This document shows, piece by piece, positions 13,930 through 48,781 of a stretch of 64,000 nt of DNA. The stretch's first letter is position 1; each line of letters begins with the position of its first letter. Position numbers and translations under genes: made by a program. Source of the DNA: Clytia hemisphaerica (lineage: Eukaryota; Cnidaria; Hydrozoa; Leptothecata; Clytiidae); contig CACVBU010000351.1 in assembly GCA_902728285.1 (NCBI GenBank), positions 1,112,370 through 1,176,369 of the forward strand. The letters run 5' to 3'. The notes beneath the pieces are model-generated. The model was not told the origin of the DNA. It searched no databases and worked only from the letters and a program-made list of their open reading frames with translations.

Positions 13930-16900
13930 GTACTTTAATAGTTTTCTCTTGGGTCAGTCCCCCAGAAATTCTAGACGACCCGGTTGTCAAATCCCACCCC
14001 TGAAAATGAAAAAAAATCGTTTTCACACGCCTTTTGTGTTTTCCCTCCCAGAAATGTTGAAATCCCCCCCCCTTTTCGGCCCAGGTCCAGGGGACCGTTC
14101 GGGGACCCCCGTTCGGTGTCCGGGAGGCCCCGAAATCGGTCCACGGAGCGAGCCAGAACGATTTTTGCCGGCTTTTGACGATACTTTGAGGAACTTTGAC
14201 CCCCCTCTTCACGACCTGGATCCGGGCAATTAATTTTTATGCAACTTATATTTTAAATTGCACACTAAAATGTAGTTTTGAAAAAATTTCACCACAAGAG
14301 AAAAAAAATTAGATTGCCAATGTCTAAATAAAATGCTTTTTGGACCTACCTCCGGGTGCCCCGGTGGAGGTCCTATAAATTAACCCATGTCCGTTCGTTC
14401 GTTCGTTCGTCTGTCCGTCTGTTACCAGCTTTTCTCAGGATTGGCTCATTAGTTTTTTCTGATTTTTTGCACAATGATGCAAAATGGCAATGCCCAGAAC
14501 GTGACGGAGCCCGATTTTTGAGAAAAAATTTATTTGGGCAAATTTGGGCCAAAAACTACCTAAAAATAGGGTTTTTTGGACTTTGTGCAAAATCCTGTCA
14601 TTACTTTTTCCTGATTTTTTGTACAAAGATGGAGGGCAAGATTCTCTAAAGAATGGCTGAAGTGGTTTTTCCGGAAAATTCTTATTCGCCTTTAAAAAAC
14701 GGATTTTCGTATTTTGGGGGGAAATTCCCTTTAACCAAATAAGAAAAATATAGCTTTTAACAATGTTGACTCGTTATTTTTTTCTGATTTTTTGCGCAAT
14801 GATGCAAAATGGCAATGCCTAAAATGTCGGAGCCCGATTTTCGAAAAAAAATTTATTTGGGCTAATTTGGCCAAAAACTGCCTAAAAATAGGGTTTTTTG
14901 GACTTTGTGCAAAATCCTGTCATTACTTTTTTCTGATTTTTTGTACAAAGATGGAGGGCAAGATTCTCTAAAGAATGGCTGAAGTGGTTTTCCCGGAAAA
15001 TTCTTTTTCGCCTTAAAAACGGATTTTCGTATTTTGGGGAAATTCCCTTTAACCAAATAAGAAAATATAGCTTTTCTCAAAGTTGACTCATTATTTTTTT
15101 CTGATTTTTTGCACAATGATGCAAAATGGTTATGCCTAAAATGTGACGGAGCCAGACTTTCGAAAAAAAATATATTTGGGCAAATTTGGGCCAAAAACTG
15201 CCTAAAATAGGGTTTTTTGGACTTTGTGCAAAATCCTGTCATTACTTTTTCCTGATTTTTTGTACAAAGATGGAGGGCAAGATTCTCTAAAGAATGGCTG
15301 AAGTGGTTTTTCCCGGAAAATTCTTATTCGCCTTAAAAAACGGATTTTCGTATTTTGGGGGAAATTCCCTTTAACCAAATAAGAAAATATAGCTTTTAAC
15401 AATGTTGACTCGTTATTTCTTTCTGATTTTTTGCGCAATGATGCAAAATGGCAATGCCTAAAATGTGTCGGAGCCCGATTTTCGAAAAAAAATTTATTTG
15501 GGCTAATTTGGGCCAAAAACTGCCTAAAAATAGGGTTTTTTGGATTTTGTGCAAAATCCTGTCATTACTTTTTTCTGATTTTTTGTACAAAGATGGAGGG
15601 CAAGATTCTCTAAAGAATGGCTGAATTGGTTTTTCCCGGAAAATTCTTTTTCGCCTTAAAAAACGGATTTTCGTATTTTGGGGAAATTCCCTTTAACCAA
15701 ATAAGAAAATATAGCTTTTCTCAAAGTTGACTCATTATTTTTTTCTGATTTTTTGCACAATGATGCAAAATGGTTATGCCTAAAATGTGACGGAGCCAGA
15801 CTTTCGAAAAAAATATATTGGGCAAATTTGGGCCAAAAACTGCCTAAAATAGGGTTTTTGGACTTTGTGCAAAATCCTGTCATTACTTTTTTCTGATTTT
15901 TGTACAAAGATGGAGGGCAAGATTCTCTAAAGAATGGCCGAAGTGGTTTTTCCCGGAAATTCTTTTCGCCTTAAAAAAACGGATTTTCGTATTTTGGGGA
16001 AATTCCCTTTAACCAAATAAGAAAATATAGCTTTTCTCAAAGTTGACTCATTATTTTTTTCTGATTTTTTGCACAATGATGCAAAATGGCAATGCCCAAA
16101 ATGTGACGAAGCCAGATTTTTAAGGAAAATTATTTTGGGCAAATTTGGGCAAAAAACAGCTTAAAAGTTTTTTTGGGCCTGAATGGTTCAAGTGATTTTC
16201 GTATTTTGGGAAATTCCTTTTTACCATTTTACATTATTCAACACACAAGCTTTATTTTTCCATTCTGAATTGTTGTACAATTATTGTCACTTTTTTCTTA
16301 TTTTCATCTGATGTTAATCATTAGGTAGGTCCATTCAGCATGTTGCTTGTTTTGAATTTTATTTACAAGAAATAGAGAATGTAATGATATACTGTTTTCT
16401 GATTTCTGTTAAAAGTTGAAAAGTTTTTTCCCCAGAAAGATTTTGTTGCACCTTTTTAAACCCCCCCTGGACTTCCATTTTTCCTTTTGCCCCCCCCCCC
16501 CCTTTTGGAATTTTTTTGAAAAAATCCCCCCAGCAAAAAGGGGGGGGGGAGAAAACTAAGCTTTTCCTTTTCAAATTTTCTTAACTGCTGATGTGACTTT
16601 GAAAAAAAAAGCCATGTTCTTTTATTATTTGCAGGGTGTCTACGGGACCTTGAAAACCTTGAAAATGAACCACCCAACCTTGAAAACCTTGAAAACTATC
16701 AATTTTCTGGGAAAAAACCTCTTCCTCTTCATACTTTTTATCATACATACATGTAGGTTTTTCTCTAGAATTGCAAATTGAGGTATCTTGCCGGACATCC
16801 CTCTACCATGATTTTTCCGATTTAGAGTAATCTGAAAAATTAAGAACGCATTTAAGAACATTTCAGGCTGAAAAATGCTAAGGAAATAAGCACATCCAGG

Positions 16901-39465: not shown

Positions 39466-42400
39466 GGGGACGAAATCTTCACATCGGTCTGGGGCGCCTG
39501 TGCTGAAAAGCCGGGTGTCCCAGCAAGAGGGAGCAAGTCCTTTGTCTTTCAGGAATAACATAACAGAAAGACAAGGACCATGATGAATTGAACCTCTGTC
39601 AAGCTGTCCACCCCTACACGACGTTGCGTTCGCCAGGAATGATTGTCACGCTGCTCTCGTTTCTGCCACGTTTCATCTGGGTTTGGTCATATCAGCTACA
39701 AATTTGAAGGTGTCGCGAACCATCAAATTTTAATGAAGAAAGCGAGAAAAAATAACATCCATATTGCATCACAGAACGTGAGAGGACTTAAGTCAAACGA
39801 TAAAATCAACGAACTTTCCACTTCAATCGCTCAAAGAGGATACTTCGCAGTGTGTTTACAGGAGACCTGGAGAAGTAGTATAGAAAACATCGATCACAAA
39901 GGTATTCGTTTTCTCTTTAACGGACTTGAAAAACACCAACATCGAAGTCGCCGTGGTGAGCAAGGTGTTGGGATCGCTTTAAATCCGGACGCATTAACAG
40001 CCTGGAAAGCCGCAGGCTCTGTAATCTACAACGAATTTGGTGCCCGAATCATTGCTATTCGTTTAAAAACTAAAGTTAACAGCATTTTCCTGATATCAGC
40101 TTATGCTCCTGTCGGGGTAGCTGATGATAATGTATGGGAAGACTTTTTGATAAAGTTAGACTCTTGTATAAGCAAAAAACATCGAGACGACGTTTTAGTC
40201 ATCGGTTGTGACTCAAATTCAAGTATGGGCATCTCCCAACGTAACGAAATACATCAGTCTGAATTGAACTCTATCGGAAAATTTGGACTTAAACACAGAA
40301 ACAACGCTGGTATTCGATTTTCAACCTACCTCGAAACCAACAGTCTAGTGGCTCTCACGACGTATTTCCAGAAAAACGATTACGTAACGTGGACACACCC
40401 CCGTTCCAAACTGCCACATCAAATTGATCACTTCATCACCAGTAAAAGTTTTTTCAACCGATGTACCGATGCTGGAGTTACGACACCCCTCATTGATAGT
40501 GACCACCGTGCTGTTTTTGTCAAATTGCGTATACACTTGAATTTCTCTAAACGTTTCACTCGACGCCAAAGAGTGGCACGTCTCGATCAAAAACTTCTGC
40601 TTAAACCTCGAATTAAGAACATGTACTGTGAACGAGTCAACAACTTGTATCTGGAGTCAGACGATACCGATAGCTATTCTAAACTTGAACGATCTATGGA
40701 GCTTGCTGCTCTTACCACACTTCCTAAAACCATTCGACAACAACCTGGATGGTTCGCTTCCAATCAAACTCGACTAAATCAGTTAATTAAAGAGAGAAAC
40801 ACTGCTGTATCTCTTAAAATCCGAAAACCCACGAGGCATTCTAATGACCGCTTGAAAAAGGCCAGAAAACAATTGAAAGGAGAAATTGCTCGATCTAAAA
40901 ACAAATGGATACTTGACATATGTAAAGATATAAACAATCCTGGGTCAGGGTCGAAAGTTTACTGGGATAAAGTAAAGTTACTTAGAAAAGGACTAAATAA
41001 ACCAAAAGTTTCATCCGAAAAAATGATGAAAAAGTCAGATGGATCGAAATGTGTCAACGCCGAAGAAAACGCTGAGGTGTTTCGAGACCACTTTCAAAAA
41101 TTGTATGAACGTGAACCAATCTACGATACAACTGTCATTGAACTGCTCGAACGACAACCAGTGTTTGAAGGTGTCGATCATGATCCTACAGATGATGAGA
41201 TTACTAAAGCAACACAATCACTTAAGAATAACGCCCCAGGAGAATCCGGTTTAACTCCTCTAATGTTCAAATCTTTAATTGCACTCCCAGAGACCTTTAC
41301 TATTCTGAAACAATTTGTATTAGAATTTTGGAACACTGAGAAACCACCAGACCAATGGAATGTCGGATTACTAAAAGTTTTACCCAAAAAAGGTGATCTG
41401 AGTTTACCTGGTAACTACCGTGGTATCATGTTACTGGAAATAGCCTATAAAATCGTAGCCAAAATTGTTCATCAGAGACTTACGCCGATATCCGAAAGCC
41501 TGGACCATGAAACACAGTGCGGATTTCGCCCAGGAAGAGGATGCACAGACGCTATTTTTACTGTTAAACTTGCATTGAAAAAGAGACGCGAACACAACCA
41601 GCAAACGTGGGTTTTATTTCTAGACCTAGTAAAAGCCTTTGATCGTGTTCCGCGTGATCTTCTCTGGCTAGTTCTCGAACGATTTGGCGTACCGCCAAAA
41701 TTACTAAGTGTTATCAAAGCACTTCATCACACCATTCAAGTGAAATTTACTGTCGATTCCATATCACACATCCTTGATTGTAAAATCGGAGTGAAACAAG
41801 GTGATGTACTCGGCCCAATACTCTTTTCGATGTACATTGCTGCTATTATGATTACATGGAGGCAAACTCGCAACCACCCACAATGCATCTTTCGTACCAA
41901 AAAGGATTTCGTACTAACTGGCAGGAGACCATACACAAAAGGTGATGACTTCGAACTAGGAGATTCAGAATACGCTGATGATACAGCCGCCTTATTCGAT
42001 TCAAGAGAAAGTTTAACAACTGATGCCCCTGTTATAAATACTCATTTCGACAGATTCGGCATGGAGATACATGCTGGAATTCGTGCCCTTCATGACAAAG
42101 CTTCAAAAACCGAAGTATTATTTGTTTCACGCCGCAATGCACAACCGATTGAATGTGACCGTGATGACGTAAATCTCAATGATGAAAAATTCTTCCCTGT
42201 CGTAGATAGATTTACCTATCTTGGATCTGTTATCACTGGCGATTGTTCCGATCGAGAAGATGTGCTACTTCGAGTTAAAAAAGCGGGAAATATGTTTGGT
42301 TCGTTGAAGAAATGTATCTTCGGAAATGTAAAATTAAATTTGAAAGTGAAAGGGAAGGTTTATGAATCCCTTATATTGTCGATCCTACTTTATGGATCAG

Positions 42401-42901
42401 AATCTTGGTGTCTGACAGAGGAGTTATATCGATGGTTGCGCTCCTTTCACAATAGATGTGTAAGAGCTATGTGTGGAGTAAATATGATTGATGTTTTTGA
42501 AAAGCATATTTCGAATGAGAATTTGTTTAATCGTCTTGATGTCAAATGTATCGATTCTTATATTGTTAAAAGGCAGTTAAGATGGGCTGGCCATGTTGTA
42601 CGCATGGATATGAATCGTCTACCAAGGAAAATGATTTCGTCGTTGGTCAGTGAAAAACGACCGCGGGGTTCTCCCGAAATGACTTACGGTCGCTCTTTGT
42701 TTAAAGCTCTTAAAAAGGCTAATATTGATAAAGACAACTGGTATAATCTCGCTATGGACAGGAACAACTGGAGAGATGCTTGCAATATAATTTCTTGATT
42801 TTTTTCTTTACCTAGCAGCGCAATGAATATCCTAAATTTGTTAGTTTTTTTTCCTAACAATTTTTAGGCCAATTCCCCTTAGGGGATGGTACAATTTATT
42901 T
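39466..42901 (+). mobile_element. Full-length RTE-like LINE with 14-bp target duplication
   Basis: The element is bounded by ATATAAACCAAAGC at 39452-39465 and again at 42902-42915, a 14-bp target-site duplication. The GC-richer 5' region (39466-39732) precedes a single long open frame. The 3' UTR has a CCCCTTAGGGG hairpin near 42875 and an AT-rich end. Intact frame plus a perfect duplication suggest a recent insertion. Confidence 0.85.
39733..42798 (+). CDS. LINE polyprotein: AP endonuclease plus reverse transcriptase (RTE-like)
   Basis: 1021 residues from the ATG at 39733 (the frame is open further upstream but without another good start). The N-terminal endonuclease shows ASQNVRGLKS, LQETW (catalytic Glu), SAYAP, GCDSNS, a late LPHQIDHF and SDHRAV. 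The RT follows: LKVLPKKGDLSLPGNYRGI, QCGFRPGRGCTDAIF, LFLDLVKAFDRVPRDL, GVKQGDVLGPILF and catalytic EYADD near residue 747. The C-terminus has LYGSESWCLT and RQLRWAGHVVRM, typical of RTE-like elements often annotated as craniofacial development protein 2. The protein nicks target DNA and primes cDNA synthesis in the nucleus. All catalytic motifs appear intact and no stop interrupts it. Confidence 0.93.
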   Translation: MKKARKNNIHIASQNVRGLKSNDKINELSTSIAQRGYFAVCLQETWRSSIENIDHKGIRFLFNGLEKHQHRSRRGEQGVGIALNPDALTAWKAAGSVIYNEFGARIIAIRLKTKVNSIFLISAYAPVGVADDNVWEDFLIKLDSCISKKHRDDVLVIGCDSNSSMGISQRNEIHQSELNSIGKFGLKHRNNAGIRFSTYLETNSLVALTTYFQKNDYVTWTHPRSKLPHQIDHFITSKSFFNRCTDAGVTTPLIDSDHRAVFVKLRIHLNFSKRFTRRQRVARLDQKLLLKPRIKNMYCERVNNLYLESDDTDSYSKLERSMELAALTTLPKTIRQQPGWFASNQTRLNQLIKERNTAVSLKIRKPTRHSNDRLKKARKQLKGEIARSKNKWILDICKDINNPGSGSKVYWDKVKLLRKGLNKPKVSSEKMMKKSDGSKCVNAEENAEVFRDHFQKLYEREPIYDTTVIELLERQPVFEGVDHDPTDDEITKATQSLKNNAPGESGLTPLMFKSLIALPETFTILKQFVLEFWNTEKPPDQWNVGLLKVLPKKGDLSLPGNYRGIMLLEIAYKIVAKIVHQRLTPISESLDHETQCGFRPGRGCTDAIFTVKLALKKRREHNQQTWVLFLDLVKAFDRVPRDLLWLVLERFGVPPKLLSVIKALHHTIQVKFTVDSISHILDCKIGVKQGDVLGPILFSMYIAAIMITWRQTRNHPQCIFRTKKDFVLTGRRPYTKGDDFELGDSEYADDTAALFDSRESLTTDAPVINTHFDRFGMEIHAGIRALHDKASKTEVLFVSRRNAQPIECDRDDVNLNDEKFFPVVDRFTYLGSVITGDCSDREDVLLRVKKAGNMFGSLKKCIFGNVKLNLKVKGKVYESLILSILLYGSESWCLTEELYRWLRSFHNRCVRAMCGVNMIDVFEKHISNENLFNRLDVKCIDSYIVKRQLRWAGHVVRMDMNRLPRKMISSLVSEKRPRGSPEMTYGRSLFKALKKANIDKDNWYNLAMDRNNWRDACNIIS

Positions 42902-43039
42902 ATATAAACCAAAGCAAAGAAAAGAAGTGAAAGAGCAAAAGTTGTTGTCTATTTTCTGCCATCTTTGTTTTGACAGTCCGATCAACAATACGCTTCTAAA
43001 ACGGCTGTATGAAGTTAGATACCTTACAAAATTCGACCT

Positions 43040-43500
43040 TTCAATTGGATGGTTCAATTTGACAATTCGACCCTTCAATTTGACAAATCGACCCTTCAAT
43101 TTGACAAATCGACCCTTCAATTTGACAAATCGACCCTTCAATTTGACAAATCGAACCTTCAATTTGACAAATCGACCCTTCAATTTGACAAATCGACCCT
43201 TCAATTTGACAAATCGACCCTTCAATTTGACAAATCGAACCTTCAATTTGACAAATCGACCCTTCAATTTGTCAATTCGACCCTTCAATTTGACAAATCG
43301 ACCCTATTTGACAAATTGATCCTTCAATTTGACGGTCGGCTTGTCAATTTAACAAATCGATCCTTCAATTTGTCAATTTGACCCTTCAATTTGACAGTCG
43401 GCTTGTCAATTTGACAAATCGACCCTTAAATTTGATGGTCAGCTTGTCAATTTGACAAATCGACCCTTCAATTTGACAAATCGACTCTTCAATTTGACGC
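43040..43500. repeat. Left-arm 21-bp minisatellite
   Basis: Units of CCCTTCAATTTGACAAATCG plus A, with variants TCAATTCGA and a longer GACGGTCGGCTTGTCAATTTG form. Open frames in several phases are by-products of the 21-bp (multiple of 3) period. Confidence 0.92.
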
Positions 43501-43604
43501 TAGTCCCAGTCCCTCTTTCAAAGAGATTTAATCTGTAAAATGGGCTAGTTCTCCATGTATCTTGCCTATTAGATTAAGGAGATAATGCTTTTTATGTATT
43601 TTTC

Positions 43605-44625
43605 TTATTCCCCATAGTCCCTCTTTCCCCATATTCCCTCTCTCCCCATATTCCCTCTTTCCCCATGTTCCCTCTCTCCCCATATTCCCTTTCTCCCCAT
43701 ATTCCCTCTCTCCCCATATTCCCGTATTCCCATATTCCCTTTCTCCCCATATTCCCATATTCCCGTATTCCCTTTCTTCCCATATTCCCTCTCTTCCCAT
43801 ATTCCCTCTATCCCTATATTCCCTTTATTCCCATATTCCCTCTCTACCCATATTCCCTCTCTCCTCATATTCCCGTATTCCCATATTCCCTTTCTCCCCA
43901 TATTCCCATAATCCCGTATTCCCTTTTACCCATATTCCCTCTCTTCCCATATTCCCTCTATCCCCATATTCCCTTTATTCCCATATTCCCTCACTACCCA
44001 TATTCCCTCACTCCCCATATTCTCGCATTCCCATATTCCCTCTCTCCCCATATTCCCTTTCTTCCCATATTCCCTATCTCCCCATATTCCCATATTCCTT
44101 TATTCCCTTTCTCCCCGAATTCCCTCTCTCCCCATATTCCTTTATTTCCTTTCTCCCCATATTTGCGTATTCCCTTTCTCTCCATATTCCCATATTTCCT
44201 TTCTCCCCATATTCCCATATTCCCGTATTCCCTTTCTCCCCATATTCCCATATTCCCGTATTCCCTTTCTCCCCATATTCCCATATTCCCGTATTCCCTT
44301 TCTCCCCATGTTCCCGTATTTCCTTTCTCCCCATATTCCCTGTCTCCCCATATTCTCATTTTTCCGTATTCCCTTTCTCCCCATATTTCCTGTCTCCCCA
44401 TATTACCGTATTCTCATATTCCCTTTCTCCCCATATTCCCTGTCTCCCCATATTCCCATATTCCCGTATTCCCTTTCTCCCCATATTTCCGTATTCCCAT
44501 ATTCCCTTTCTCCCCATATTCCCATATTCCCGTATTCCCATATTCCCGTATTCCCTTTCTCCCCATATTCCTATACTCCCTTTCTCCTCATATTCCCATT
44601 TTCCCTTTAATCCCGTATTAAGGGA
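43605..44625. repeat. Left-arm CCCATATTCCC minisatellite
   Basis: About 1 kb of diverged short units mixing CCCCATATTCCC, CCCTTTCT, CCCTCTCT and CCCGTATT. It is strand-asymmetric (pyrimidine-rich plus strand). Long open frames on both strands result from the repetition and are not genes. Confidence 0.92.
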
Positions 44626-44629
44626 ATAC

Positions 44630-45893
44630 ACAATATTACCAGCTGATATTACTCGTGTTATGCATAAGTGTTAAAATTGCTTTAAAAAAATACAGTCCAC
44701 CCCATCTCCCTCGAATCAGAGCTCAAATCAGCCTTGTTTCAAATAAGGAACCAGCATTGCTTCCCCGAATCGGGAGAATAGGATTAAAATTTTAATCACA
44801 ATATCAGAAAAATTGAGTTCTAGAGGAAATACTCCAAGAAGGGACCAAGAAAATCATTCGAGTTACGGAAGTTCGAGTACGAGTAAGCAAGCCTTAACGT
44901 ACAAGATGAAAAACTACAACTAAAGATCGCGATAGGAAAAATCAAATAATTTCGCGAGATAAACTTTCGCGAAACAATGATTTTAGATTTTTCGCGAGAC
45001 AAACTTTTCCGAAAGGGTAAAATTCGCGAAATTCGCAAAGGTTTATCTTGCGAAAGTTAACCCGAATAAAGTACTCTTAAAATCAGAAAGACATTTGCAA
45101 ACCTTTAATTTTTTTTTTTTTACAAAAAATTCAAAATAAGCCTTGAAAATTACTTAACCCAAGCCTTAAAAAGTACAATATGTAGAGCGAGTTGTACTTT
45201 TGTAGACAAAAGAGTTCATAATTTCAACTTAGGTTTTCAGTTATTTGGTATTTAATTGTTACATTGAAACAAAAATATTATTAAAATTACTTTTTCAAAG
45301 TAGTTTTATGCTCATTTTATTTCTAACGAAAATGGAACCTTTTATCGATTTTTAAGCACTGTCGTGACATTGTTCGTAAGAAAAACCATCTTGGAAAATG
45401 CTCGCAGTATCACTTTTTAATGGATTTAACTTACTTCGAAGATAGTTGTTTCATTGAAAGCCTAAAATGAGCCATAATATGTTTTTGTTACCAGGCTTTA
45501 TCAAGCATGTAAAATTACAATGCAATCGTGTCAAGATAAGGATAAATACAATAACTAGAAAAGACTCCATGGTAAAATAACTACATTGTAGCCAAAACAC
45601 AAGGTCTAATCTCTATTAAAATGTATCGATTGAGAATTTAATTTCAGATTTAGGGGGTTCTAATATGGAAAAAATATTCAATTTTGACTGCATTTAAGTG
45701 TCATCATTTATGACATAATTGTCAATAATGGCATAGATATGAAAAAAAGTTGGAATATTTTAACTTTATTCTGGTCGACAATCTATTAGCTCTGTATTAA
45801 AATCATTTTTCGGCACTTAAGAAACTTTTTGTGACCACAGAAAAGGCATTAATGCGTACAATGGTACTTTTTAAGGCTTGTTTACTGGTAATA
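44630..45893. other. Left interior of the foldback element
   Basis: AT-rich, no gene. Diverged TTTCGCGAGA / TTTCGCGAA words lie at about 44935-45065, possibly a decayed TTTCGCG-type MITE. Confidence 0.5.
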
Positions 45894-47132
45894 CCTTATA
45901 GGTACTAATTTTAGCGCGTACTAATTTTTTGCGCAGAGGCCCAAAAATGCGCGATATTAAATACCGAAATTATGCACAGTCAGGAAGTGAGAGAAAAGTA
46001 ATACCACATTTTAAAAGAAAGTGGCATTTATCTTTAAAAAGTTCTTTATTTTTGTTTATATGCATAGAAAAGAGAGGCCTTTGTGCGCGAAAATTAATAC
46101 CGATAATCTGAAGACAATTAGACTAGTAACTAGCCGTTGTATTTCGCTGCAGCCCCGCTTGCAACACGCACACTACGTTCGCTGAATACAGAAACCTCTC
46201 ATTCCCGTGGCGTTTTTCTTAAAGCCGCGCGCATCACTTTATAAGCACATTTCCCGCGTTTTGTGTCTCAGGAAAACCAGACGCTTGCTAGTCTATAAGA
46301 CAATTGGCTGCTGCACGAAAATCTTTTTTTCTTGATGCGCGAAAATTAGGGTTGGTGTAATTTAAGATGCACGATCTAACGATTTACGATTCACGATGCG
46401 CGATCCATGCATAAAGTATGCTGATTATTCCTAATAATTATCATAAAACATAAATTATATAACATAATTCTAAAACAATGGCATAATATTTTCTCGCTTT
46501 TGTTCACCACAGTAAATTTATCCAAAAAAAAGAAATAAATAAGCAATGGAACTACGAATAATTACGACCGTAAAATTATGAAAAAAATAACTTGCATAAT
46601 CTTACAATAGAAAGAAAGTGAAAGTAATAAACAATGCACAAGAAACATTTTTGCTCTCAGTTTTAACAATCAATAATCGAATATAGGAATTTCCTTCTTA
46701 AAGCAAATAAAAGAATATATTGGAGAACAATATGTTTTGCGGACCGTAATGTACGAAGCAAAAAACGGATGCTCTATTATGAGAAAGAATTTTCTTTCGG
46801 TAAACAATTTCCCTATATTGATTCAAGTTATGAAATAGAGAGAGAGTACAGAAGGTGAATGCACGTGGCTTTCACTTTCTTTTTTAATCTATAAAAACGC
46901 ACAGCTGAAAGCTTTTTTAAATATAATTTGTATAATCTTACATAAATTATGTTTTTAAAAATAATTGAGTTTCAGCGAATGAAAGTTTGTAAATTGCCTA
47001 AATATTTTATCATGATTAGTATAATTACGCATGAATTAACATATTTTATGCACGGATCGCGAATCGTGCATCGTAAATCGTTAGATCGTGCATCTTAAAT
47101 TACACCAACCCCGAAAATTAGTACTATTAAGG
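45894..47132. repeat. TA-flanked element nested in the foldback interior
   Basis: Ends CCTTATAGGTACTAATTTT and complement of CCTTAATAGTACTAATTTT, TA on both sides (45892-45893 and 47133-47134). It has been split near its right end by the Mutator-like element at 46349. Confidence 0.75.
46349..47111. repeat. 763-bp Mutator-like (MULE) non-autonomous element
   Basis: Terminal inverted repeats of about 70 bp start GGGTTGGTGTAATTTAAGAT and continue with GCACGATCTAACGATTTACG. CGAAAATTA is duplicated at 46340-46348 and 47112-47120. Long TIRs plus a 9-bp duplication are the hallmark of Mutator-like elements. The interior is AT-rich with no transposase. Confidence 0.85.
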
Positions 47133-47282
47133 TAGAGTAATTTAGGAAATTTTCACCGTGCCAACACATTTGCTCGTATTAAGGAGAGGTTTGAGTAAAG
47201 TTTTCATTCACCGAGCGGAAAAAATTCTAAAAATAGAATTGGTCGCAGAGATCTCGTAGACACTGTTTGATTTCCATAATAT

Positions 47283-47906
47283 GGGAATACAGGAATATGG
47301 GGAGACAGGGAATATGGGGAGAAAGGGAATACGGGAATATGGGAATAGGAGGAGAAAGGGAATATGGGAATATGGGGAGAAAGGGAATACGGGAATATGG
47401 GAATATGGAGAGAAAGGGAATATGGGAATATGGGGAGAAAGGGAATACGGGAATATGTGGAGAGAGGGAACATGCGAAGAAAGGGAATATGGGGAGAGAG
47501 GGAATATGGGAATACGGGAATATGGGGAGAGAGAGGGAATATGGGTAGAGAGGGAATATGGGAATAAAGGGAATATCGGGATAGAGGGAATATGGGAAGA
47601 GAGGGAATATGGGGAGAACGGGAATATGGGAATACGGGAATATGAGGAGAGAGGGAATATGGGTAGACAGGGAATATGGGAATAAAGGGAATATGGGGAT
47701 AGAGGGAATATGGGAAGAGAGGGAATATGGGAAGAAAGGGAATACGGGAATATGGGAATATGGGGAGAAAGGGAATATGGGAATACGGGAATATGGGGAG
47801 AGAGGGAATATGGGGAGAAAGGGAATATGGGGAGAGAGGGAACATGGGGAAAGAGGGAATATGTGGAGAGAGGGAATATGGGGAAAGAGGGACTATGGGG
47901 AATAAG
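47283..47906. repeat. Right-arm GGGAATATGGG minisatellite (mirror of left arm)
   Basis: Reverse-complement counterpart of 43605-44625, about 0.4 kb shorter, sharing the same unit order next to the spacer. Confidence 0.92.
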
Positions 47907-48011
47907 AAAAATACATAAAAAGCATTATCTCCTAAATCTAATAGGCAAGATACATGGAGAACTAGCCCATTTTACAGACTAAATCTCTTTGAAAGAGGGA
48001 CTGGGACTAGC

Positions 48012-48440
48012 GTCAAATTGAAGAGTCGATTTGTCAAATTGAAGGGTCGATTTGTCAAATTGACAAGCCGACCATCAAATTGAAGGGTCGATTTGTCAAA
48101 TTGACAAGCCGACTGTCAAATTGAAGGGTCAAATTGACAAATTGAAGGGTCCATTTGTCAAATTGACAAGCCGACCATCAAATTGAAGGATCAATTTGTC
48201 AAATAGGGTCGATTTGTCAAATTGAAGGGTCGAATTGTCAAATTGAAGGGTCGATTTGTCAAATTGAAGGGTCGATTTGTCAAATTGAAGGGTCGATTTG
48301 TCAAATTGAAGGGTCGAATTGATAAATTGAAGGGTCGATTTGTCAAATTGAAGGGTCGAATTGACAAATTGAAGGTTCGATTTGACAAATTGAAGGGTCG
48401 ATTTGTCAAATTGAACCATCCAATTGAAAGGTCGAATTTT
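48012..48440. repeat. Right-arm 21-bp minisatellite (mirror of left arm)
   Basis: Reverse complement of the 43040-43500 array, including the GACAAGCCGACCATCAAATTG long variants nearest the spacer. Confidence 0.92.
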
Positions 48441-48466
48441 GTAAGGTATCTAACTTCATACGGCTG

Positions 48467-48781
48467 ACGTTGCCCGATCGACAAGGAGAACAGAGCGCCG
48501 TACGGATATTTACTACATACGTTTCTCGAAGAAATGACGTCTTCCGCCTCGAAAAAAGAACATCCTACTGTTTTTACTGCCGGAGCTTGATTTGGCTTGG
48601 TTTTGGCCATTTCGTGCGAAAAAATTTGTCCGCTAATCAGCAGAGGGTCCGCTAATTGAGTGTCCGCCTTTTAGAAACTTTTTTATGAGGATTTGACTAG
48701 GAAACGGCCGGGGAAAATTGAATTGTCCGCTAATCAGAGGTGTCCGCCTTTTAGAGTGTCCGTTAATAAGAGGTTTTACTG
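48467..48781. other. Flank ending in a pogo/Tigger-like terminal repeat
   Basis: GC-richer stretch with several GTCCGCTAATCAG and TGTCCGCCTTTTAGA repeats, ending in ATTAAGAGGTTTTACTG-like sequence before TA. It is the right-hand end of a pogo/Tigger-like element. A short open frame here (48470-48655) has no recognisable family. Confidence 0.55.

Follow-up and report, generated by a model that had tools for sequence, protein, structure and literature searches.

The 64,000-nucleotide window of the Clytia hemisphaerica genome analyzed here (contig CACVBU010000351.1; C250:1112370-1176369 in our numbering) contains a 5453-bp element at 43008-48460, organized as inverted arms around a core, which is very probably a non-autonomous foldback transposon of the IS3EU/GingerRoot type that carries no gene itself. 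Its ends are of the form TA..TA, 6-bp target-site duplications flank it and several of its relatives, and a longer relative with the same ends carries a gene for an integrase-like transposase; because these three features fit IS3EU/GingerRoot, the element is best read as a non-autonomous foldback derivative of that type. A first-pass annotation, made from the letters of the window, had placed a 5.45-kb foldback at these coordinates, and its limits hold almost to the base. All genome searches cover the 417-Mb assembly (951 contigs), elements are named by their contigs, and published work is cited from excerpts of the papers concerned.

The window element is a transposon insertion

The two termini have a 31-bp end in common, TATGAAGTTAGATACCTTACAAAATTCGACC, and a shorter string within the termini, TATGAAGTTAGATACC, is exact at 43008 (+) and at 48445 (-); CGGCTG adjoins each terminus (43002-43007 and 48461-48466), just as the first-pass annotation had stated.

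43002..43007, no strand: left target-site duplication CGGCTG, from flank comparison and ungapped empty-site matches
43008..43034, + strand: left 27-bp terminus TATGAAGTTAGATACCTTACAAAATTC, with 2-3 differences in the sister family described below
48434..48460, - strand: right 27-bp terminus, the inverted copy of the left
48461..48466, no strand: right target-site duplication CGGCTG, from flank comparison and ungapped empty-site matches

The window flanks joined with one CGGCTG form an empty-site query of 133 bases, which gave 390 candidates in the whole genome at first look; 40 were scored, and all 40 match across the joint at 82-97% identity. Six of these 40 copies align over the full query, positions 1-133, with a length of exactly 133 bases; the highest identity among them is 97%. 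The target (42940-43007 plus 48467-48531) is itself a repeat, and because its other copies run uninterrupted across the joint, the element was inserted in one copy of an older repeat. CGGCTG is taken to stand once in the uninterrupted copies because the matches are ungapped at 133 bases, a conclusion drawn from length. The window element is thus a real transposon insertion.

A search with the 31-base end pattern, allowing up to 3 mismatches, finds 11 sites in the genome and 0 for the reversed pattern that served as control. The 11 sites form six elements, five with two inverted ends (C250, which is the window element, C722, C394, C508, and C617) and one with a single end (C443); the same ends, which the first-pass annotation proposed to look for, therefore occur at five other places, four of them two-ended. 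Exact 6-bp duplications flank three of the five two-ended elements (CGGCTG at C250, AGTATG at C722, and AATATT at C617). The arms and core of the window copy are also present in C722, C394, and C508, and C443 has one arm and ∼130 bp of core. The foldback family has few copies, and the genome also contains transposase-bearing relatives that are broken or truncated. In the C394 copy, parts of the core that overlap each other appear twice, in direct orientation (L010 3350-4346 and 4857-6253), and the flanks do not match; C394 and C508 may have arisen by exchange between copies.

That the structure is an assembly artefact, or two minisatellites brought together by chance, is scarcely credible. Tandem arrays are prone to misassembly, and the flanks of C394 and C508 are unmatched, but two-ended elements stand at five places on five contigs, three of them with duplications, and the paralogous uninterrupted target stretches supply an empty site. 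Given the copies on other contigs and this empty site, misassembly is very unlikely and this explanation was rejected.

Each arm carries two minisatellites around a composite spacer

Each arm starts with the 31-bp end, followed inward by a minisatellite of 21-bp units, the 114-bp spacer, and a second minisatellite of the CCCATATTC type, so that the mirrored two-minisatellite design reported from the window letters is borne out. The left arm is 1612 bp and the right arm 1169 bp, with 95.5% identity over 1166 aligned bases, and ∼400 bp of the 443-bp difference in length lies within the CCCATATTC-type array, close to the 0.4 kb first estimated.

43053..43498, + strand: left 21-bp minisatellite, unit TTCAATTTGACAAATCGACCC, with an outer uniform part and an inner variant series
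43499..43612, + strand: left spacer, whole 114 bp
43499..43542, + strand: left spacer part 1 (44 bp), common to the left end of the C617 element
43543..43612, + strand: left spacer part 2, starting GGCTAGTTC, also at C716, C885, and C784
43609..44619, + strand: left CCCATATTC-type minisatellite
47292..47901, - strand: right CCCATATTC-type minisatellite
47898..48011, - strand: right spacer
47898..47967, - strand: right spacer part 2
47968..48011, - strand: right spacer part 1
48012..48415, - strand: right 21-bp minisatellite

The rare long variants that the first-pass annotation saw in both 21-bp arrays consist of 41-bp pairs that contain GTCGGCTTG or a close variant of it, plus a TATTTGACAAATTGATCC unit, and they follow the same order in the two C250 arms. 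This fixed series is found in seven of the nine foldback arms, with C443 one member short, and was not seen in the two short arms of C508. In the seven arms that show it, the outer, near-uniform 21-bp units vary in number and the inner variants keep a fixed order.

The spacers of the window element differ between the arms at 2 of 114 sites, in keeping with the few differences first described. Recent homogenization of the arms within copies was considered and is not supported, with mean spacer differences of 2.75 within copies (4 pairs) versus 3.75 between copies (24 pairs); between-copy pairs differ by as few as 0 sites, and only the C722 arms share two changes.

Transposase-bearing relatives and a sister family point to IS3EU/GingerRoot

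The C617 element (C617:145049-166016; L012, L019, L020, and L013) spans 20,968 bp between the same 31-bp ends, and next to its right end is an integrase-like transposase gene (match to Pfam rva_4, PF24764; E 2.8e-79). A copy at C635 shares 98.4-99.7% identity with C617 across the longer matched stretches; its 479-codon open frame encodes a product that matches rva_4 (E 7.6e-77) and, far under the curated cut-offs of both models, NCBIfam IS3 (9e-08) and IS481 (4.9e-06). The C635 protein has the catalytic triad D227, D284, E321 (DD36E, a spacing of 36 residues separating D284 from E321), and no HHCC-like motif precedes the triad; compared by sequence with solved structures, the protein gave 0 matches at E 0.1. 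The termini of the foldback family and of C617 read TATGAAG...CTTCATA, i.e., TA..TA.

A degenerate form of the end pattern finds 20 sites (control, 0), of which 11 are the sites found with the 31-base pattern and four are single sites at C212, C527, C783, and C804. A sister family is represented by a two-ended element of 18,231 bp at C145, with an rva_4 match inside and the duplication CCTTTT, a two-ended element of 897 bp at C295 with the duplication TTAAAA, and a single end at C139, whose transposase is 56% identical to that of C635 over 470 positions. Both of the two-ended sister elements thus have exact 6-bp duplications. Their termini are TATGGAG...CTCCATA, and the first 27 bases differ from those of the window element at two sites in C145 and C139 (25/27 identical) and at three in C295. 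The sister arrays differ in sequence, with a 20-bp unit plus 19-bp and 13-bp units in some arms.

The family is named from the ends, the duplication length, and the profile matches of the C617/C635 partner, with the Pfam family rva_4 taken to belong to IS3EU. Complete IS3EU families are described as lacking an HHCC motif and as having TA..TA ends and target-site duplications usually of 6 bp; the same source places IS3EU and GingerRoot in a single lineage (PMC10045372, excerpt). The elements here have the same combination of TA..TA ends, exact 6-bp duplications (five of the seven two-ended elements of the foldback and sister families together), and an IS3/IS481-like DDE transposase without HHCC, and the window element has the long inverted arms with tandem repeats and the middle domain of the foldback structural class. 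The earlier description as a foldback with a 6-bp duplication therefore stands, and the family for which it had no name can be given one.

Several observations weigh against this assignment. Comparison of flanks gives no duplication at C394 or C508 (two of the five two-ended elements of the family), so that the proposed check on duplication length succeeds at C722 and C617 and fails at these two. A 711-bp insertion and a frame break disrupt the transposase gene of C617, and C635 lacks an outer end of this family in the end-pattern searches and is a truncated copy; therefore, the transposase partner that the first-pass annotation called for is found in C617 and C635, but no intact autonomous copy was seen. 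The 711-bp insertion lies at L013 909-1621, and the matches on its two sides overlap by 4 bp.

Derivation from a Polinton/Maverick is very improbable. Polintons also have 6-bp duplications and an integrase, and are ∼20 kb with long inverted ends; the size of C617, its 6-bp duplication, and its integrase-like protein would suit such an origin. However, DNA polymerase B (PF03175), whose 31 candidates were all scored and gave 12 places in the genome, is on neither C617 nor C145, and the idea was rejected on this ground; moreover, in a Pfam scan of 20 of the listed C617 reading frames, only rva_4 and CUE exceed the curated cut-off, with a run of 1053 bases of C617 reading N.

A Mutator- or P-type foldback such as FB, Tetris, or Galileo is likewise very improbable. 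FB and TU foldbacks, which the first-pass annotation named, are similar to the window element in architecture. Foldbacks are known mostly from Mutator and, for Galileo, from P (PMC4079207 and PMC3169594, excerpts), and the architecture, a middle domain between long arms that contain tandem units, is the same (PMC4079207, excerpt). The duplications here are 6 bp, not 8 to 11 bp, and the partner transposase is rva_4/IS3-like with no Mutator-like element (MULE) or THAP match listed for it; duplication length and transposase type led us to reject this origin.

Two further features concern the relatives. C617 encodes a CUE domain (2.1e-09, above the cut-off); a HECT match is weak (0.043) and falls below the cut-off, as do the other matches there. 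The CUE frame and HECT-like pieces are perhaps a passenger ubiquitin-ligase gene, and no link of IS3EU with a ubiquitin ligase was found in the literature searched. The genome has 596 rva_4 candidates; all 150 of those scored match, and many of them have a long open frame, which suggests that transposons of the IS3EU-like kind are abundant.

A probable composite origin of the foldback arms

Both arms of each of the four two-ended foldback copies contain spacer part 1, as does the left end of C617, whereas 2.5 kb of the C617 right end gave no match to it. The simplest reading of this distribution is that both arms are the left end, copied by inverted duplication. Spacer part 2 has 13 occurrences, of which the foldback family accounts for nine, C716 for two, and C885 and C784 for one each; C617 lacks it. 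The places outside the family (C716:596612-598258, C784:637653-637729, and C885:121697-121776) lack foldback-family ends. The flank changes sharply at GGCTAGTTC in C885 and C784, and at C716 a weak likeness continues for ∼10 bases. The CCCATATTC-type array is present at C716 and C885, with a trace only at C784; since spacer part 2 and this array are together at C716 and C885, the second minisatellite is common to another repeat, from which it probably joined the arms. At C716, spacer part 2 and the array form an inverted pair, perhaps another foldback family, and a comparison of its two sides gave no outer inverted repeat past the spacer above chance level.

One feature of the arm anatomy is less favorable to this account. 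CGACTC-TTCAATTTGA, which precedes spacer part 1, is present at both C617 ends, including the right; therefore, it does not decide the origin of the arms, and the argument for the left end narrows to spacer part 1, which may instead have been lost from the C617/C635 right end. As a separate correction, the spacer, first described as unique and about 110 bp, has nearly that length, but is not unique, as its second half, from 43543, is also at C716, C885, and C784.

With both arms read as the left end, the anatomy suggests that an inverted copy of the left end took the place of an ancestral right end, that the second minisatellite, from another repeat, came to lie inside this inverted copy, and that the core gathered pieces of other repeats. 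A transposase of the C617/C635 type would have acted in trans, binding both ends and moving the element by cut and paste. Less certainly, the 21-bp array may have grown from a putative subterminal transposase-binding site (TTYGATGGTC, at nucleotide 38), and the CCCATATTC array may be cargo.

A subterminal motif and the role of the arrays

The motif TTYGATGGTC was scored in 16 arms, with one mismatch allowed and 100 shuffles per arm. It starts at nucleotide 38 in all seven arms of C617, C145, C295, and C139, repeats at 58, 78, or 99 in the sister family, and is found further in for eight of the nine foldback arms; no reverse copy is present in any of the 16 arms. A bolder proposal, less likely than not, is that IS3-like (integrase-type) transposons here build minisatellites inside their own ends: the putative binding site at nucleotide 38 would be amplified in register with a period of 20-21 bp (two helical turns), the array sequence would turn over between families as motif, place, and period stay, and the process would have led to a foldback independently of Mutator and P.

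The foldback arms themselves count against this proposal, as the motif starts at nucleotide 38 in none of the nine and is degenerate there, C508_L has no copy of any kind, and the motif counts of C250_L, C722_R, and C443_L are reached by at least one of 100 shuffles. The motif was also chosen by eye from the same sequences on which it was scored; given this choice and the shuffle result, the array as a binding site is therefore a lead.

The arms may equally be neutral, with slippage and unequal exchange lengthening the units and only the last ∼30 bp mattering for transposition, a reading to which we give a little under an even chance and which stands about level with the binding-site reading; it bears on the arrays only and does not conflict with the family assignment. 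End-to-spacer lengths of 148-632 bp across the nine foldback arms are as neutral arrays would have them, and C508 retains both ends although its length is the shortest. Short arrays of period 18-22 are also present in the window outside the element. At 30 rva_4 loci, a set that includes near-identical copies, arrays of period 18-22 with at least 3 copies are on the 5' side in 6/30 (L040, L045, L047, L050, L054, and L059) and on the 3' side in 2/30 (L043 and L060), which is not a clear signal of a general excess of such arrays beside rva_4 genes. The 5' arrays at L040, L050, L054, and L059 have 21-, 20-, 18-, and 19-bp units, respectively, of different sequence. Against neutrality, the different, 20-bp array of the sister family keeps the same place, with the same motif start at nucleotide 38.

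The core and the neighborhood of the element

The core is a patchwork, in which segments 44932-45075, 45892-46119, and 46119-46295 recur elsewhere in the genome. A coding core was considered and set aside, as only two reading frames of at least 60 codons are clear of arrays, of 72 and 60 codons.

44620..47291, no strand: core, common to C722, C394, and C508
46349..47111, no strand: nested inverted-repeat element of 763 bp, with ∼90-bp inverted ends and the 9-bp duplication CGAAAATTA

The nested element is absent from the C508, C722, and C394 copies, and has at least 28 further near-full copies at 86-98% identity among the 40 scored of 1344 candidates. Just left of the foldback (39643-42798) is a 1051-codon frame like that of a long interspersed nuclear element, with endonuclease and reverse transcriptase matches, and a tandem array with a 322-bp unit (5.4 copies, 92% alike) is at window positions 14427-16166.

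Relationship to known elements and implications

The closest known systems each share part of this organization. IS3EU/GingerRoot elements are like the C617/C635 partner in their TA..TA ends, 6-bp duplications, and IS3/IS481-like DDE transposase without HHCC (PMC10045372, excerpt), whereas the window element lacks a transposase and has 1.2-1.6 kb two-minisatellite foldback arms. Fungal IS3EU elements with TET/JBP genes differ in having inverted repeats of >30 bp and TAYGG..CCRTA ends (PMC12730594, excerpt). Galileo, of the P superfamily, also has long inverted arms with internal tandem repeats, and its transposase THAP domain is shown to bind sites in two of its repeats, but the transposase superfamily is another and the repeats are few, long, and direct, not a 21-bp array (PMC3688188, excerpt). 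Tetris of Drosophila virilis likewise is a foldback that carries tandem repeats within its inverted ends and encodes no transposase, but it has ∼220-bp units, 8-10 bp duplications, and no autonomous partner found (PMC4079207, excerpt). Tm1 of root-knot nematodes has composite inverted ends with a short repeated motif, and non-autonomous and transposase-bearing forms in one genome; it differs in its Mutator (Phantom-like) transposase, 9-bp duplications, and ∼14-bp motif (PMC3169594, excerpt). No foldback of the IS3EU type was found in the literature searched, which stops short of Repbase and most subscription journals, where a precedent is possible; within it, IS3EU and foldback co-occur only where foldback stands in a reference list, and IS3EU and minisatellite co-occur in genome papers.

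Long repetitive arms are of interest because Galileo, whose arms are long and internally repetitive, generated natural chromosome inversions (PMC3688188, excerpt) and because the transposase of some foldbacks, such as Tetris, is not known (PMC4079207, excerpt). Here, a single genome contains the foldback, its longer transposase-bearing relatives, and a sister family, so that the stages leading from a plain end to a foldback arm can be followed in order. That the arm minisatellites are amplified transposase-binding sites is an idea testable with short DNA probes; if true, new minisatellites would arise naturally from the element, and the arrays would serve as multi-site synapsis platforms.

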